NCBI RefSeq assembly: GCF_000427645.1 | Contig: NZ_KE386571.1 | Coordinates: 620,001-684,000, forward strand | Source: Sphingomonas phyllosphaerae FA2 | Lineage (GTDB): Bacteria; Pseudomonadota; Alphaproteobacteria; Sphingomonadales; Sphingomonadaceae | Reading direction: 5' to 3' | DNA length: 64,000 nt | Shown here: one piece after another, positions 7,308 through 59,784 of the stretch | Position numbering within the stretch: position 1 is the first letter of the stretch | How the letters are laid out: every line of letters begins with the position of its first letter | Notes under the pieces: generated by a model | Told to the model about the DNA's origin: nothing | Database searches by the model: none | What the model saw: the letters and a program-made list of their open reading frames with translations, nothing else | Translations under genes and position numbers: made by a program

Positions 7308-8437
7308 TGGTCGACTGGCCGCATGACGCGCTGGTGCTGACCCCGCACGACATCGATCTGTCGCGCTCGCCGCTGGCGGGGAAGATCGACGCCGAGACCT
7401 ATGTGCTGGGCGCGTTCAATCCCGGCATGACGCGGCTGCCGAACGGCAATCTGTTGCTGATGGTGCGTGTCGCCGAGGCGCTGCGTCATCCGGTGCGGGA
7501 GCAGCAGGTTCATGCGATCCGCTGGCACGACGGCGGCTATGTGCTCGATGCGTGGCCGCTGTCGCTGGTCGACACGTCCGACCCGCGCAAGTTCATGATG
7601 CGCGGCGGCGGGTGGAAGGTGATGGCGCTGACGTCGCTGTCGTGGCTGTTGCCGGTCGAGCTGGATGCCGAAGGGCGCGGGGTGGTGGCGATCCACTATG
7701 ATCGCGCGATCGCGCCGCGCACCGACTATCAATGCTATGGCGTCGAGGATGCGCGGATCACGCAGGTCGACGGGCGTTATTACATGACGACCTGTTCGGT
7801 CAGCCCGGAGCGGCATTCGACGACGCTCTACACCAGCGACGATGCGCTCGACTGGACGCTGGAGGGGATCGTTCTCGATCACCAGAACAAGGATATGCTG
7901 ATCTTCGAGGGGAAGGTCGGCGGTAAATTCTGCGCGCAGACGCGGCCGCTCGGCGATTTGTATTTCGCCTATCCGCCTGAGTCCGAATGGCGCGCGGGGC
8001 CGTCGATCAATCTCGCGACCTCGCCCGACGCGCTGCACTGGAAGCCGTATGACAAGCCCGGCATCCGCCCGCATGCGCAGACGATGGCGACCGCACGGAT
8101 GGGCGGTGGCGCGCCGCCGGTGCTGGCGGAGGTCGGCGGACGGCGGGGCTGGCTGTCGCTGTGGCATGGCGTCGAGCCGTCTGGCGTGGTCGGCATCTAC
8201 CGGACCTATTGGACCTTGCTCGACCCGGACGATCCGTCGCAGGCGCTGGCGACCGATCATGCGCCGCTGCTCGAGCCGGCGCCGGAGTTGCTCAAGCCGC
8301 TGGAGAATCTGCTTTACGTGACCGACGTGGTGTTCACGACCGGGATCGCGGACGGCGGCGACCATTGGGCGGTGGCGAGCGGCGAGGCCGATCTGGCCTG
8401 CCGAATCACGCATGTGCCGAAGGATCGGATCGGGTGA
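7304..8437 (+). CDS. Glycoside hydrolase family 130 protein
   Basis: A 377-residue beta-propeller protein of the GH130 family. Members act on beta-mannosides, either as phosphorylases (releasing mannose-1-phosphate) or as beta-1,2-mannosidases. Visible family features are GAFNPGMTRLPNGNLLLMVR at the start of the propeller, GVEDARITQVDGRYYMT (catalytic Asp region), EGKVGGKF, ARMGGGAPPVL and DHWAVASGEADLACRI near the C-terminus. No signal peptide is seen, so it is probably cytoplasmic. It overlaps the upstream SDR gene by four bases. I cannot choose between phosphorylase and hydrolase from the residues visible. Confidence 0.87.
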   Translation: MMVDWPHDALVLTPHDIDLSRSPLAGKIDAETYVLGAFNPGMTRLPNGNLLLMVRVAEALRHPVREQQVHAIRWHDGGYVLDAWPLSLVDTSDPRKFMMRGGGWKVMALTSLSWLLPVELDAEGRGVVAIHYDRAIAPRTDYQCYGVEDARITQVDGRYYMTTCSVSPERHSTTLYTSDDALDWTLEGIVLDHQNKDMLIFEGKVGGKFCAQTRPLGDLYFAYPPESEWRAGPSINLATSPDALHWKPYDKPGIRPHAQTMATARMGGGAPPVLAEVGGRRGWLSLWHGVEPSGVVGIYRTYWTLLDPDDPSQALATDHAPLLEPAPELLKPLENLLYVTDVVFTTGIADGGDHWAVASGEADLACRITHVPKDRIG

Positions 8438-8451
8438 TCGTCGTCTGTCAT

Positions 8452-8530
8452 CCGTCATTGCGAGCGGAGCGAAGCAATCCAGGGCGACCTGGTCCGGCCC
8501 TGGATTGCTTCGCTCCGCTCGCAATGACGG
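8452..8530. repeat. Palindromic repeat pair, family B (perfect 33-bp inverted repeat)
   Basis: The arms ccgtcattgcgagcggagcg... (8452–8484) and 8498–8530 are perfect reverse complements over 33 bases, with a 13-base loop. The same repeat occurs at 17995–18073, 35548–35625 and, with a degraded left arm, 45723–45801. Arms of this length would form a cruciform or a very stable RNA hairpin. Here it lies just after the GH130 gene. Confidence 0.88.
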
Positions 8531-13032: not shown

Positions 13033-13165
13033 GTTCACGCGGAGGCGCGGAGGCGCAGAGAGGCTGTGCTTGCCGCACTGCAAATCCACCATCGCACGAT
13101 CTGGAGTGACAGGGCGACGCGTGATTCACGCGATACATCTCCGCGTCCTGCGCCTCCGCGTGATC
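13033..13165. repeat. Short inverted-end element related to the GxxExxY element, without a gene
   Basis: The left end (13033–13060, gttcacgcggaggcgcgg...) and the right end (about 13139–13165) are imperfect inverted copies of the 28-bp ends that flank the GxxExxY gene at 58579–59022. The interior of about 78 bases has no open frame worth calling. It lies in the 315-base gap between bla and the gene ending at 13293. The remainder of that gap (13166–13292) shows nothing recognisable. Confidence 0.78.
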
Positions 13166-38945: not shown

Positions 38946-39848
38946 GTGACCGACATCAGCGCTCCCCGCCCGCTCAGCTTCCAGGCGATGATCCTGCGGC
39001 TCCACCAATATTGGTCGGAGCGCGGCTGTGCGATCCTCCAGCCCTATGACATGGAAATGGGGGCCGGCACCTTCCACCCCGCCACCACGCTGCGCGCGCT
39101 GGGGCCGGACACGTGGAACGCCGCTTATGTCCAGCCGTGCCGCCGCCCGACCGACGGCCGCTATGGCGAGAACCCCAACCGGCTCCAGCATTATTACCAA
39201 TATCAGGTGATCCTGAAGCCGAGCCCGCCCGACCTGCAGGAACTCTACCTTGGCAGCCTCGCTGCGATCGGCGTCGATACCGGGCTGCACGACATCCGCT
39301 TCGTCGAGGACGATTGGGAGAGCCCGACGCTCGGCGCGTGGGGGCTGGGCTGGGAGGTCTGGTGCGACGGGATGGAGGTGACGCAATTCACCTATTTCCA
39401 GCAGATGGGCGGGTTCGACATGAAGCCGGTCGCGGGCGAGCTGACCTACGGGCTCGAACGGCTGGCGATGTACATCCAGAATGTCGACAACGTCTACGAT
39501 CTGGCGTTCAACGATGCCGGGGTCTCCTATGGCGACGTGTTCCTCGAGAACGAACGCCAGATGTCGACGTGGAATTTCGAGGTCGCCGACACCGACGCGC
39601 TGTTCGACCTGTTCAGAAAGGCCGCGGCGGAATGCGAGCGCAGCCTTGCCGCCAAGCTGCCGATTCCTGCCTATGAGCAGGCGATCAAGGCCAGCCACAC
39701 CTTCAACCTGTTGCAGGCGCGCGGCGTGATCTCGGTCGCCGAGCGGCAGGCCTATATCGGCCGCGTCCGCGACCTCGCGAAGGCGGCGTGCGCGGCGTAT
39801 ATGGAAAAGAACGGCTGGGCGGAGCCGCTCAAGGTCCCGGCGGCGTGA
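38946..39848 (+). CDS. glyQ: Glycyl-tRNA synthetase alpha subunit
   Basis: A 300-residue catalytic subunit of the bacterial heterotetrameric GlyRS. Class II motifs are in [60 protein letters not shown] and [20 protein letters not shown]. The start codon is GTG at 38946. An inverted-end element separates it from glyS, so the pair is not overlapping as in many relatives. No T-box is expected or seen. Confidence 0.96.
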
Positions 39849-39876
39849 CGCGCTGCCGACTCGCCGCGCAGAGATT

Positions 39877-40017
39877 GTTCGCGCAGGGGCGCGGAGGCGC
39901 AGAGATGGTGCGCGCGCGGCGCATGTCCGCGGTAGCAATCTCGTCAAGCGCCGGCGGCTCCGGCGATGCGCTGGCCGCTGACGCGCCCTCTCTGCGCCTC
40001 CGCGCCTCTGCGCGAAC
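39877..40017. repeat. Short inverted-end element between glyQ and glyS, without a gene
   Basis: The left end 39877–39905 (gttcgcgcaggggcgcggag...) and right end 39989–40017 are inverted copies with a single mismatch over 29 bases. They belong to the same family as the ends of the GxxExxY element. The interior of about 83 bases has no credible gene. It fills nearly all of the glyQ–glyS gap. Confidence 0.82.
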
Positions 40018-40083
40018 TAACCTTCTTCTTCCTCTTCGCGTCCTCGCGGCTTCGCGTGACCCCAACCAAACGGCCCGCCCAGC

Positions 40084-56869: not shown

Positions 56870-57306
56870 TATGCGGCCTCCTCTTCACGGTCACGACGGG
56901 GGCCACGATCGCCACGATCGCCGCCGCGGTCACCACGCTCGCCACGGCCGCCTTCGCGGTCGCTGCGGCGCTCACGGTCGCGCTCCTGCTTGCGCATCAT
57001 CACGGTCGGGCCCTCTTCATGGCCGTCGACGCGGACGGTCATGTAGCGGATCACGTCCTCGTTGATGCTGGTCTGACGCTCCAGCTCGGCGACCGTGTCG
57101 CCCGGTGCGTCGATCTCGAGCATCACGTAGTGCGCCTTGCGGTTCTTCGCGATCCGATAGGCGAGCGAACGCAGGCCCCAGGTCTCGGTCTTGACGACCT
57201 TGCCGCCGCGTTCCTCGACGATCTTGGTGGCGGTTTCCGCCAGCGTGTCCACCTGCGCCTGTGCCAGATCCTGGCGCGCAAGGAACACATGCTCGTACAG
57301 AGCCAT
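56869..57306 (-). CDS. rpsF: 30S ribosomal protein S6
   Basis: 145 residues. The S6 fold spans [57 protein letters not shown] and [19 protein letters not shown]. The last 40 residues form a low-complexity Arg/Asp/Gly tail ([20 protein letters not shown]), a feature of sphingomonad S6. It leads the operon; the upstream 311-base gap shared with fabD holds three copies of a 9-bp motif. Confidence 0.96.
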
Positions 57307-57617: not shown

Positions 57618-58577
57618 ATGCGCGCGTTCATCTTTCCCGGTCAGGGCAGCCAGGCGGTCGGCATGGGCGCGGCGCTGGCCGATGCCTCGGCGGTGGCGCG
57701 CGAGGTGTTCGGCGAGGTCGACGAGGCGCTGGGGCAGAATCTGCGCCGGTTGATGGCGGAAGGTCCCGGCGACGAACTGACGCTGACCGAGAATGCGCAG
57801 CCGGCGATCATGGCCAATGCGATCGCGACGCTGCGCGTGCTGACGCGTGAGGGCAATGTGCGGCTGGCCGAGAAGGCCGATTATGTGGCCGGGCACTCGC
57901 TGGGGGAATATACCGCGTTGTGCGGGGCGGAGGCGCTGGACCTCGGAACGACCGCGGGGCTGCTCAGGACGCGCGGGCGCGCGATGCAGGCGGCGGTGCC
58001 GGTCGGCGAGGGCGCGATGGCGGCGCTGCTGGGCGCGGACGTCGAGAAGGCGCAGGCGATCGCCGGCGCGGCGGTCGACCTGATCCTGACGGAGACCGGC
58101 GAGACATTGGTGTGCACGGTCGCCAACGACAATGATCCGTCGCAGGTGGTGATCTCGGGGCATCGCGTCGCTGTCGAGCGTGCGGTGGGACTGGCCAAGG
58201 AGATGGGGGCGAAGCGGGCGGTGCTGTTGCCGGTGTCGGCGCCGTTCCACTGCGCGTTGATGGAGGATGCGGCGCGGGTGATGGAGGGCGCGCTGGCGGA
58301 GGCCGATCTGCGCGCGCCGCTGGTGCCGGTGTTCGCCAACGTCGATGCAGTGGCGGTGGCCGATCCGGGGGCGATCCGGCGGCTGCTGGTCGAGCAGGTG
58401 ACCGGGCGCGTGCGGTGGCGCGAGTCGGTGCTGGCGATGGTCGAGGCGGGGGTGACCGAGTTCGTCGAGTTCGGCGGCAAGGTGCTGTCGCCGATGGTGA
58501 AGCGGATCGCGCCGGACGTCGAGGCGGTGAGCGTGGTGTCGATGGACGATGTCGAGGCGGTGCTGAAGAGGCTGTGA
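57618..58577 (+). CDS. fabD: Malonyl-CoA:ACP transacylase
   Basis: 319 residues. Loads malonate from CoA onto ACP for fatty acid synthesis. MRAFIFPGQGSQAVGMG at the N-terminus, nucleophile Ser94 in AGHSLGEYTA, and catalytic His211 in VSAPFHCALM are intact. GGAGG lies seven bases before the ATG. It heads the cluster fabD–[GxxExxY element]–fabG–acpP–fabF. The stop codon lies one base before the left inverted repeat of that element. Confidence 0.97.
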   Translation: MRAFIFPGQGSQAVGMGAALADASAVAREVFGEVDEALGQNLRRLMAEGPGDELTLTENAQPAIMANAIATLRVLTREGNVRLAEKADYVAGHSLGEYTALCGAEALDLGTTAGLLRTRGRAMQAAVPVGEGAMAALLGADVEKAQAIAGAAVDLILTETGETLVCTVANDNDPSQVVISGHRVAVERAVGLAKEMGAKRAVLLPVSAPFHCALMEDAARVMEGALAEADLRAPLVPVFANVDAVAVADPGAIRRLLVEQVTGRVRWRESVLAMVEAGVTEFVEFGGKVLSPMVKRIAPDVEAVSVVSMDDVEAVLKRL

Positions 58578-58578
58578 T

Positions 58579-59022
58579 GTTCACGCGGAGGCGCGGAGAC
58601 GCGGAGAAGAGGTGAGAGATATCGACGCCATCAGCGGTGACGTTCTCGATCTGGCGTTGCGGCTCCACCGTGAACTCGGCCCCGGGCTGCTGGAGAGTGT
58701 GTACGAGACCGTGCTGGCCGGACGCCTTGCGGCGATGGGCTATTCCGTCTCCCGGCAGCATTCGATGGACATTCGCTTTGATGGTCAGATTTTTCCGGCG
58801 GCGTTTCGGATCGACCTGTTGATCGACGACCGTTTGGTCGTCGAGGTGAAGTCGGTCGACAAGTTGCTGCCAGTGCATGGCAAGCAATTGCTGACGTATC
58901 TGAGGCTTACCGAGCAGCCCGTGGGGCTGCTCATCAATTTCGGAGGTGAGACGTTGAAGGAAGGCGTGCGACGGGTCGTCAACAACCATCGTCCCTCCGC
59001 GTCTCCGCGCCTCCGCGTGAAC
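58579..59022 (+). mobile_element. Inverted-repeat element carrying a GxxExxY gene
   Basis: Perfect 28-bp inverted repeats at 58579–58606 (gttcacgcggaggcgcggag...) and 58995–59022 bound a 444-base unit. The only gene inside is the GxxExxY protein, and the right repeat encodes its last residues. No target-site duplication is visible. Two related elements without the gene are at 13033–13165 and 39877–40017. It sits between fabD and fabG, which are usually adjacent. Mobility is inferred from the repeats, not shown. Confidence 0.72.
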
Positions 59023-59037
59023 CAACCTACGGAGTAA
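58612..59037 (+). CDS. GxxExxY-family protein (PD-(D/E)XK-like)
   Basis: 141 residues starting at GTG, with GGTGAGAG context and the left repeat just upstream. The family signature GPGLLESVYE (G-x-x-E-x-x-Y) lies at about 23–32. The nuclease-like core follows with FDGQIFPAAFRIDLLIDDRL (candidate metal-binding Asp), VVEVKSVDKL (E-x-K) and KQLLTYLRL. The fold is related to PD-(D/E)XK nucleases, but no function is established. The C-terminal tail SASPRLRVNQ is encoded by the right inverted repeat, a recurring feature of the family. It probably cotranscribes with fabD and fabG. Confidence 0.85.
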   Translation: MRDIDAISGDVLDLALRLHRELGPGLLESVYETVLAGRLAAMGYSVSRQHSMDIRFDGQIFPAAFRIDLLIDDRLVVEVKSVDKLLPVHGKQLLTYLRLTEQPVGLLINFGGETLKEGVRRVVNNHRPSASPRLRVNQPTE

Positions 59038-59040
59038 CCA

Positions 59041-59784
59041 ATGTTCGACCTTACAGGCATGACCGCGCTGGTGACCGGCGCTTCGGGGGGGATCGGGTCG
59101 GCGATCGCGAAGGGGCTCGCGGCGCAGGGGGCGCGGCTGGCGGTGTCGGGGTCCAACGTCGCCAAGCTGGAGGCCTTCCTGACCGAACTGGGCGGGGAGG
59201 GGCATGTCGCGGTGCCGTGCGACCTGTCGGATGCCGCCGCGGTGGACGCGCTGGTGCCGCAGGCGGTGGCGGCGCTGGGCGGGCGGATCGACGTGCTGGT
59301 CAACAACGCCGGTGTCACGCGCGACAATCTGGCGATGCGGATGAAGGACGACGAATGGGATCAGGTGATCCGCGTCAACCTAGAGGCCGCGTTCCGGCTG
59401 ATCCGCGCCGCGGCCAAGCCGATGATGAAGCAGCGCTTCGGCCGCGTGATCTCGATTACCTCGGTCGTCGGGCAGACCGGCAATCCGGGGCAGGCGAACT
59501 ATGCCGCGTCCAAGGCCGGGCTGGTCGGCATGTCCAAGGCGCTGGCGCAGGAGCTGGCCAGCCGCAACATCACCGTCAATTGCGTCGCGCCCGGCTTCAT
59601 CCGCTCGGCGATGACCGACGGGCTGCCCGAGGCGCAGAAAACGCAGTTGACGGCGCGCATCCCGGCGGGCGATCTGGGGACGGGCGAGGACATCGCCGCC
59701 GCGGTCGTGTATCTGGCGTCGAAGGAGGCCGGCTACGTCACCGGGCAGACCATCCACGTCAACGGCGGGATGGCGATGGTTTGA
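59041..59784 (+). CDS. fabG: 3-oxoacyl-ACP reductase
   Basis: 247 residues of the SDR family. NADPH-dependent reduction of 3-ketoacyl-ACP. TGASGGIG (12–19), NNAG (88–91), Ser141, Tyr154 and Lys158 (YAASK) are present; the FabG-specific NYAASKAGLVGMSKALAQEL and NGGMAMV end fit. GGAG lies seven bases before the ATG, just past the right end of the inserted element. Position between fabD and acpP supports the fatty-acid role over other SDR substrates. Confidence 0.95.
   Translation: MFDLTGMTALVTGASGGIGSAIAKGLAAQGARLAVSGSNVAKLEAFLTELGGEGHVAVPCDLSDAAAVDALVPQAVAALGGRIDVLVNNAGVTRDNLAMRMKDDEWDQVIRVNLEAAFRLIRAAAKPMMKQRFGRVISITSVVGQTGNPGQANYAASKAGLVGMSKALAQELASRNITVNCVAPGFIRSAMTDGLPEAQKTQLTARIPAGDLGTGEDIAAAVVYLASKEAGYVTGQTIHVNGGMAMV

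Follow-up and report, generated by a model that had tools for sequence, protein, structure and literature searches.

The window, i.e., the 64,000-nucleotide stretch of Sphingomonas phyllosphaerae FA2 DNA analyzed here, holds between fabD and fabG a short cassette that consists of a GxxExxY gene and two inverted arms (Table 1). The arms are 28 nt long, 100% complementary and separated by 388 nt. Upstream, the fabD stop codon ends at position 58577, one base ahead of the left arm; downstream, fabG starts at 59041 with a GGAG in front. A first-pass annotation, made from the letters alone, had described a unit that splits fabD from fabG in this way, and the coordinates agree with it. The FA2 genome has one GxxExxY gene, and no Rfam family was found at gathering scores between positions 57000 and 60500.

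Table 1. Features of the fabD–fabG cassette and of gene-less arm elements in the window.
Feature	Position	Strand	Description
fabD	57618..58577	+	upstream neighbour of cassette; matched in 58 of 61 genus genomes
left arm	58579..58606	+	GTTCACGCGGAGGCGCGGAGACGCGGAG; three CGCGGAG heptamers
GxxExxY gene	58612..59037	+	141 aa, GTG start; PD-(D/E)XK / Cas4-like fold
right arm	58995..59022	-	exact inverted copy of left arm; codes part of C-terminal tail
fabG	59041..59784	+	downstream neighbour of cassette
e9, gene-less 131-bp element	13034..13164	+	two inverted arms, 78-bp core
e10, gene-less 139-bp element	39878..40016		CGCAGAG-type arms, between glyQ and glyS (gene names by eye)
single CGCGAAG-like arm	40034..40060	-	second arm type at glyQ–glyS, just outside e10

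We scored arms as the best ungapped inverted match between 200-nt flanks (+1/−1.5). The FA2 pair has a score of 28, and none of 267 control windows of nearly the same geometry, placed on contigs of 80 other GxxExxY loci, reached 15. The perfect 28-bp inverted repeats that had been noticed around the gene are hence not a product of chance. The right arm lies inside the GxxExxY open reading frame and, from the translation, codes for SASPRLRVN. The earlier reading that this arm forms the C-terminal codons thus stands for FA2 and for the fabD site in the genus, where the stop codon lies past the arm in 21 of 24 copies and within it in the other three. It does not extend to other places: the stop codon precedes the right arm in the four genus copies at other sites, as it does in 54 of the 60 loci with arms examined elsewhere. 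GxxExxY cassettes are about 490 nt in length.

The FA2 protein matched TIGR04256, its sole NCBIfam family, with 121.9 bits (cut-off 35; profile positions 3–116 of 116), and PF13366 (PDDEXK_3) with 121.1 bits (cut-off 22; positions 3–117 of 117). An AlphaFold2 model built from a 64-row alignment (pLDDT 91.3, pTM 0.86) had Cas4 SSO0001 as the nearest solved fold (VIA Z 8.9) and also resembled other PD-(D/E)XK enzymes; in Foldseek the best hit, again Cas4 SSO0001, had an E value of 1.2e-3 and none was at or below 0.001. Cas4/RecB-type nucleases have the motif order E-D-ExK-QxxxY. Residues D68, E78 and K80 were invariant in 64 of 64 aligned GxxExxY proteins, as were a Q and a Y that we take to be the Cas4/RecB-like motif residues. 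The PD-(D/E)XK-like core proposed earlier is therefore well founded on family matches, invariant D/E/K residues and fold. The protein resembles Cas4/RecB-type nucleases in fold and motif order, but unlike Cas4 itself it stays under the Pfam Cas4 (PF01930) gathering score (13.3 against 22.7 bits), and the PDB contained no sequence relative at E ≤1. Median dN/dS of the gene was 0.18 and the highest value 0.27, for the 74 of 171 pairs with dS below 1.5, with dS near saturation. Judged from alignment and substitution rates, the active site is conserved and under purifying selection. One copy outside the 64 aligned proteins (L065, genome G290) has good arms but carries T instead of the catalytic K in its ExK motif and is perhaps inactive.

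Arms around GxxExxY genes are found far beyond Sphingomonas. A genome_contigs scan with a six-member alignment yielded at least 575 relatives, from which the best 80 were kept. By record titles, these 80 loci span many phyla, including Acidobacteria, Planctomycetota, Bacteroidota, Chloroflexi, cyanobacteria and two Methanosarcinales contigs. Among these best 80 of at least 575 loci, inverted flanks scored at least 15 in 60, at least 20 in 37 and at least 25 in 16; at the remaining 20 loci an arm pair at score 15 was absent. When left flanks were combined with right flanks of other loci, 22, 7 and 0 of 400 combinations reached 15, 20 and 25, respectively, whereas shuffled flanks (0/240) and same-contig windows (0/267) never reached 15. 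The expectation that matching inverted repeats flank such genes more often than chance was thus confirmed, and a chance origin of the repeats is ruled out by 60 of 80 loci against 0 of 267 control windows. In a sample from the class, 17 of 29 GxxExxY loci scored at least 15 (hand count) and 12 were without an arm pair at that score; in the genus, all 24 copies at the fabD site scored at least 18. As far as sequence can tell, the gene forms a single unit with its two arms.

The arms are built from iterated heptamers of the form C[A/G]C-NN-AG. Read from outside to inside, an arm is approximately TTNACC[A/G]C-NN-AG, followed by C[A/G]C-NN-AG two more times with a few spacer bases. The two bases NN are mostly common within a locus: in 55 loci they were identical in 65% of unit pairs within a locus versus 23% between loci, and none of 500 permutations gave a value as high. 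At the level of phyla, NN follows the protein tree weakly (23 changes versus 27.6 when shuffled; 2/200 shuffles as low).

To follow the cassette among close relatives, we compared 30 fabD–fabG junctions. Nineteen contained a GxxExxY gene, eight were short (12–95 nt) and three held another gene. In L024, L026 and L030 (genomes G060, G009 and G037), an opposite-strand acyltransferase-like gene, named from its sequence, replaces the cassette. Target-site duplications were not seen in the comparisons at this site. Of 28 genus GxxExxY copies read, 24 lie directly behind fabD. Their arm types, assigned by eye from the commonest unit with several arms being mixed, were GGAG (8), GAAG/AAAG (8), AGAG (7) and GACG (1). 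On a GxxExxY tree computed without the arms, the arm type required five changes, with a minimum of three and a shuffled mean of 12.1; none of 200 shuffles was as low. On the fabD and fabG trees it required 13 changes each, and 163 and 170 of 200 shuffles, respectively, were as low. Judged by these trees, the arm type is linked to the protein rather than to the host. The residues that track the arm type are inseparable from phylogeny.

AU tests on the GxxExxY data rejected host groups that had been chosen after the trees were seen, i.e., G018+G058+G034+G024 (p 0.004), G029+G032 (p 7e-12) and G000+G059 (p 0.008). The nearest neighbour by FabD was also the nearest by GxxExxY in only 3 of 19 species, and FabD and GxxExxY distances were weakly correlated (Mantel r 0.18; 20 of 999 permutations as high). 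Because host and cassette trees conflict and nearest neighbours rarely agree, we rule out vertical inheritance of the cassette at fabD–fabG. The first-pass annotation had pointed to the junction in related genomes, and there the cassettes have been exchanged independently of the host.

Identity along the junction was compared in 11 chosen species pairs. In seven close pairs with different arm types, fabD and fabG were 91–94% identical and the cassette 65–73%; in the more distant pair G042/G005 the neighbour genes were 85–87% and the cassette 68% identical. Three pairs with the same arm type had cassettes of 83–95% identity. For two of the seven close pairs (G058/G024 and G058/G018), the drop of identity on either side was flush with the arms. 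In the other five it lay up to about 30 nt outside the arms, and in the three pairs with G034 within the last 30 nt of fabD. In these alignments identity is thus lost no more than about 30 nt from the arms, if not exactly at them, which supports exchange of the cassette as a unit. Since five of the seven drops lie outside the arms, recombination in short flanks may be involved.

Carriage by phages or mobile plasmids was considered as well and rejected. No match was found among 50,697 phage records, and the eight plasmid records with the gene are all listed as non-mobilizable. The best plasmid match was a fabD-GxxExxY-fabG arrangement with CGCGAAG-type arms on an 880-kb replicon of Sphingomonas parapaucimobilis, where the public record annotates the gene only as 'GxxExxY protein'.

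Arm sequences also occur away from the gene. The 23-nt core of the FA2 left arm had 21 copies in the genome at up to 3 mismatches versus 5 for the reversed control pattern, and a stricter arm pattern had 33 versus 0. With the genus pattern TTCRCGCRRAGVCGCRRAGVCGCRRAG (2 mismatches, own arms counted, 61 genomes), at least five copies were found in 22 of 26 gene-bearing genomes (median 35) versus 3 of the 35 genomes that lack the gene (median 0). Over all 61 genomes, the reversed control had two matches. In the class, with an ACCAC-type pattern and 385 genomes, the numbers were 8 of 23 gene-bearing versus 6 of 362 gene-less genomes. That the repeats might occur mostly without a tie to GxxExxY genes, which would have spoken against the initial reading, is thus not what these genomes contain. 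In G060, the genome nearest to FA2 by FabD, both the gene and the repeats are absent. In G004, whose gene is flanked by CGCGACG arms, we counted 17 copies of the CGCGACG type, with at most 5 in each of the 60 other genomes, and two copies of the common arm type. By pattern counts, the dispersed arm type is therefore cognate to the gene in this one species.

The p-values for the gene–repeat tie treat species as independent. When we corrected for relatedness with a fabD tree that included 36 of the 61 genomes, five supported independent pairs were left (4.0 in the same direction, 0.1 opposite, median p 0.125), and the tie was not significant because there were only five such pairs. The genome counts hence support an association of gene and repeats that is not significant after this correction. 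The gene-less exceptions in the genus are G031 (27 copies), G020 (28 copies, 79% complete) and G009 (7 copies). Between fabD and fabG, G031 (L216) has a short, decayed 3' remnant of a GxxExxY gene with the right arm, and has kept its 27 dispersed arms; the remnant aligned with a score of 60 versus a maximum of 26 in 200 shuffles. The six repeat-bearing gene-less genomes of the class comprise four that are 94–100% complete (G152, G245, G259, G365) and two that are 70–80% complete (G285, G287). We looked for a hidden GxxExxY gene in repeat-rich gene-less genomes and did not find one. A profile search of 12 such genomes, including the six of the class, was run without a positive control. A lax HMM, likewise without a positive control, was applied to 17 short stretches of three of these genomes and one stretch of G031; it detected no gene and missed the G031 remnant. 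Gene-bearing genomes have one to three matches to the GxxExxY family, fragments included.

The gene could be a passive passenger with an unrelated job in repair or defence, swapped by ordinary homologous recombination, its arms kept alike by gene conversion and its repeats spread by another transposase. Short recombination tracts would fit the slight drop outside the arms in five of seven close pairs, and the protein's PADLOC matches are nucleases of defence systems, albeit weak ones (best E 6e-4). Such a passenger would, however, not be expected to have repeats tied to it in both genus and class, a G004 repeat type that fits the arm type of its gene, or arms that flank it in many phyla, and we consider this explanation quite unlikely.

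Where they are listed in full, in three genomes with 139 copies, the dispersed copies mostly form gene-less pairs of about 130 bp. In these genomes, 46 of 72 neighbours closer than 500 bp face each other as they do around the gene, and 4 of 72 have the opposite orientation. Thirty-five of the 46 facing spans measure 128–153 bp, and three of 437–445 bp are gene cassettes (hand count). In 25 elements the arms were near-exact and the cores of about 75 bp loosely alike: 79 of 300 core pairs were above the 95% shuffled level and 36 of 300 above the shuffled maximum. Several elements have different arm types nested concentrically round one core. The gene-less element e9 folds as a single hairpin (z −6.0), whereas a single arm as single-stranded DNA barely beats its shuffles (z −0.96 and −1.31).

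Sites without these elements were looked up in relatives. For e9 no match was found in the two G060 stretches compared. In G060, the 259 bases from 39823 to 40081 between glyQ and glyS, which include e10, are missing and the flanks abut. Three relatives have rough empty sites for element e1 (71% identity). Element e2 has an uninterrupted counterpart in G005 (86%), another insert in G060, and in G059 a counterpart whose outer arms are the same but whose interior differs. No target-site duplication was found at the e1, e2 and e10 sites, where relatives are 71–95% identical and boundaries unclean. At two G060 loci (L024, L191), a TTCGACAAGCTCAGCACGAACGG-like repeat is found where relatives have GxxExxY arms. 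In G000 a nest of about 640 bp is present twice in inverted orientation (C1:2163138-2163782 and 3476359-3477001; L006, L015). It consists of several arm types and a TTGCGAGC hairpin, and neighbouring sequence on one side is duplicated too.

Taken as one unit with cognate dispersed copies and exchange at or near the arms, the cassette would best be explained by recognition of the heptamer arms by the GxxExxY protein, with cutting or nicking that would move or convert the DNA between them. We lean, by a narrow preference, towards a system of the REPIN/RAYT kind in which the GxxExxY gene and its two arms are served by a helper of the PD-(D/E)XK class acting on its own arms. The GxxExxY protein would recognize its iterated-heptamer arms and, as a PD-(D/E)XK nuclease, would cut or nick at or beside them. 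Genomes would then, on rare occasions, swap the whole cassette through exchange at or near the arms, and gene-less arm pairs of about 130 bp, similar to REPINs or MITEs, would spread and persist in trans within the same genome. The protein would thus bind and cut the arms, with cutting as the presumed cause of dispersal. The first-pass annotation had suggested a mobile unit that moves itself or a domesticated one; exchange at the site and arms at 60 of the best 80 of at least 575 loci support a mobile or domesticated unit, and it may be the protein itself that moves it.

Several of these observations could also be arranged around a homing-like conversion, in which the nuclease would cut a rival arm type at the resident site, repair would copy its own cassette into the break, and the dispersed arms would be by-products. 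Close relatives with different cassettes at the same site, an identity drop at the arms or up to about 30 nt away as expected from end resection, an arm type that goes with the protein and concentric arms of different types around one core all suit this explanation; it accounts for the constancy of the site, the nesting of arms and the indistinct edges better than the REPIN/RAYT-like reading does. That reading in turn explains better the many gene-less dispersed pairs, which homing would not readily make, and the empty junctions are not evident cut sites. On balance we regard homing-like conversion as unlikely.

The REPIN/RAYT-like reading invites comparison with known systems. In RAYT (TnpAREP)/REPIN systems, a single-copy gene is flanked by its repeats, dispersed inverted doublets are conserved at their ends and less so in the spacer, and repeat and protein co-evolve (PMC3116915, PMC8266576). 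Certain tyrosine-transposase genes carry long TIRs where others have REPs (PMC3733652). The GxxExxY gene likewise is flanked by its own repeats and accompanied by dispersed inverted doublets in the same genome. In contrast to RAYT/REPtron genes, it encodes, by Pfam, NCBIfam and fold, a PD-(D/E)XK protein and not an HUH/Tyr enzyme; unlike a REP, a single arm consists of iterated heptamers and is neither a small palindrome nor a stable hairpin; and unlike in RAYT/REPIN systems, different cassettes replace each other at one site. The system would hence work like RAYT/REPIN and yet not be one, because its helper is not HUH and its arms are not single palindromes. Similar to MITEs with an autonomous partner, the gene-less units of about 130 bp share terminal repeats with a gene-bearing unit in the same genome; they differ from MITEs in that no target-site duplication was seen, GxxExxY is not a DDE transposase and cores are little conserved.

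Bacterial 23S rRNA intervening sequences are another relative in form. The Coxiella sequence measures 428 nt, combines a 28-bp stem with an S23 ORF and is called selfish (PMC4990558). It shares with the GxxExxY cassette a short ORF within terminal inverted repeats; the GxxExxY protein, though, is unrelated to S23 (TIGR02436), and the fabD–fabG cassette is intergenic and outside rRNA. We also inspected eight TIGR02436 loci (L256–L263), whose genes encode four-helix-bundle (S23) proteins. Inverted repeats were found at all eight, with scores of 14–33, at least 15 in six, and by eye the arms are mostly iterated heptamers; these eight loci had no separate control. TIGR02436 genes with similar arms imply that a nuclease fold is not required for such an architecture. 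An RNA-level element comparable to these intervening sequences, whose protein would bind or trim a transcript hairpin while host recombination or a foreign enzyme spreads the DNA, is retained since in the folded transcript of the FA2 cassette the 28-bp stem formed by the arms is closed (z −6.9) and since TIGR02436 genes, of unrelated fold, have inverted arms. We nevertheless hold it to be improbable: dispersed DNA copies correspond to the arm types, short pairs without a gene make up many of the copies, and the fold is nearest to DNA nucleases such as Cas4.

In a wider and more tentative proposal, which we would sooner doubt than assert, the GxxExxY cassettes belong to an ancient family of mobile units in bacteria and archaea. 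A Cas4-like protein would read the heptamer address C[A/G]C-NN-AG, usually present three times per arm, and would move or copy what lies between the arms; NN would assign elements to their protein, and TIGR02436 cassettes, with heptamers of their own, would be a second lineage of this architecture. GxxExxY genes are widespread and belong to a family whose name says nothing about what the protein does. Should the arms be what the protein targets, this anonymous family would acquire both a substrate and a role, and a class of bacterial repeats so far unexplained would acquire its helper. Specificity would be directly testable as a two-base heptamer code, and the repeatedly exchanged fabD–fabG site would be a natural laboratory for replacement among cassettes of different specificity. 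Should TIGR02436 cassettes indeed be the second lineage, rRNA intervening sequences would obtain a mobile origin. Literature linking GxxExxY (PF13366, PDDEXK_3, TIGR04256) to repeats was not found in a search that mostly did not reach subscription papers, such that novelty is unproven; the findings suggest a type of bacterial mobile DNA that has received little description.

A second repeat family, GTCATTGCGAGCGNAGCGAAGCAATC, occurs in the window at 8454 and 35549. It has 301 copies in the genome at up to 3 mismatches, with 0 for the reversed control. The repeats form long hairpins (z −13 for window positions 8430–8530), and the copies seen begin with CGTC. This start recalls the CGTC-tagged REPs of PMC3733652, the text of which does not contain 'GCGAGC'.
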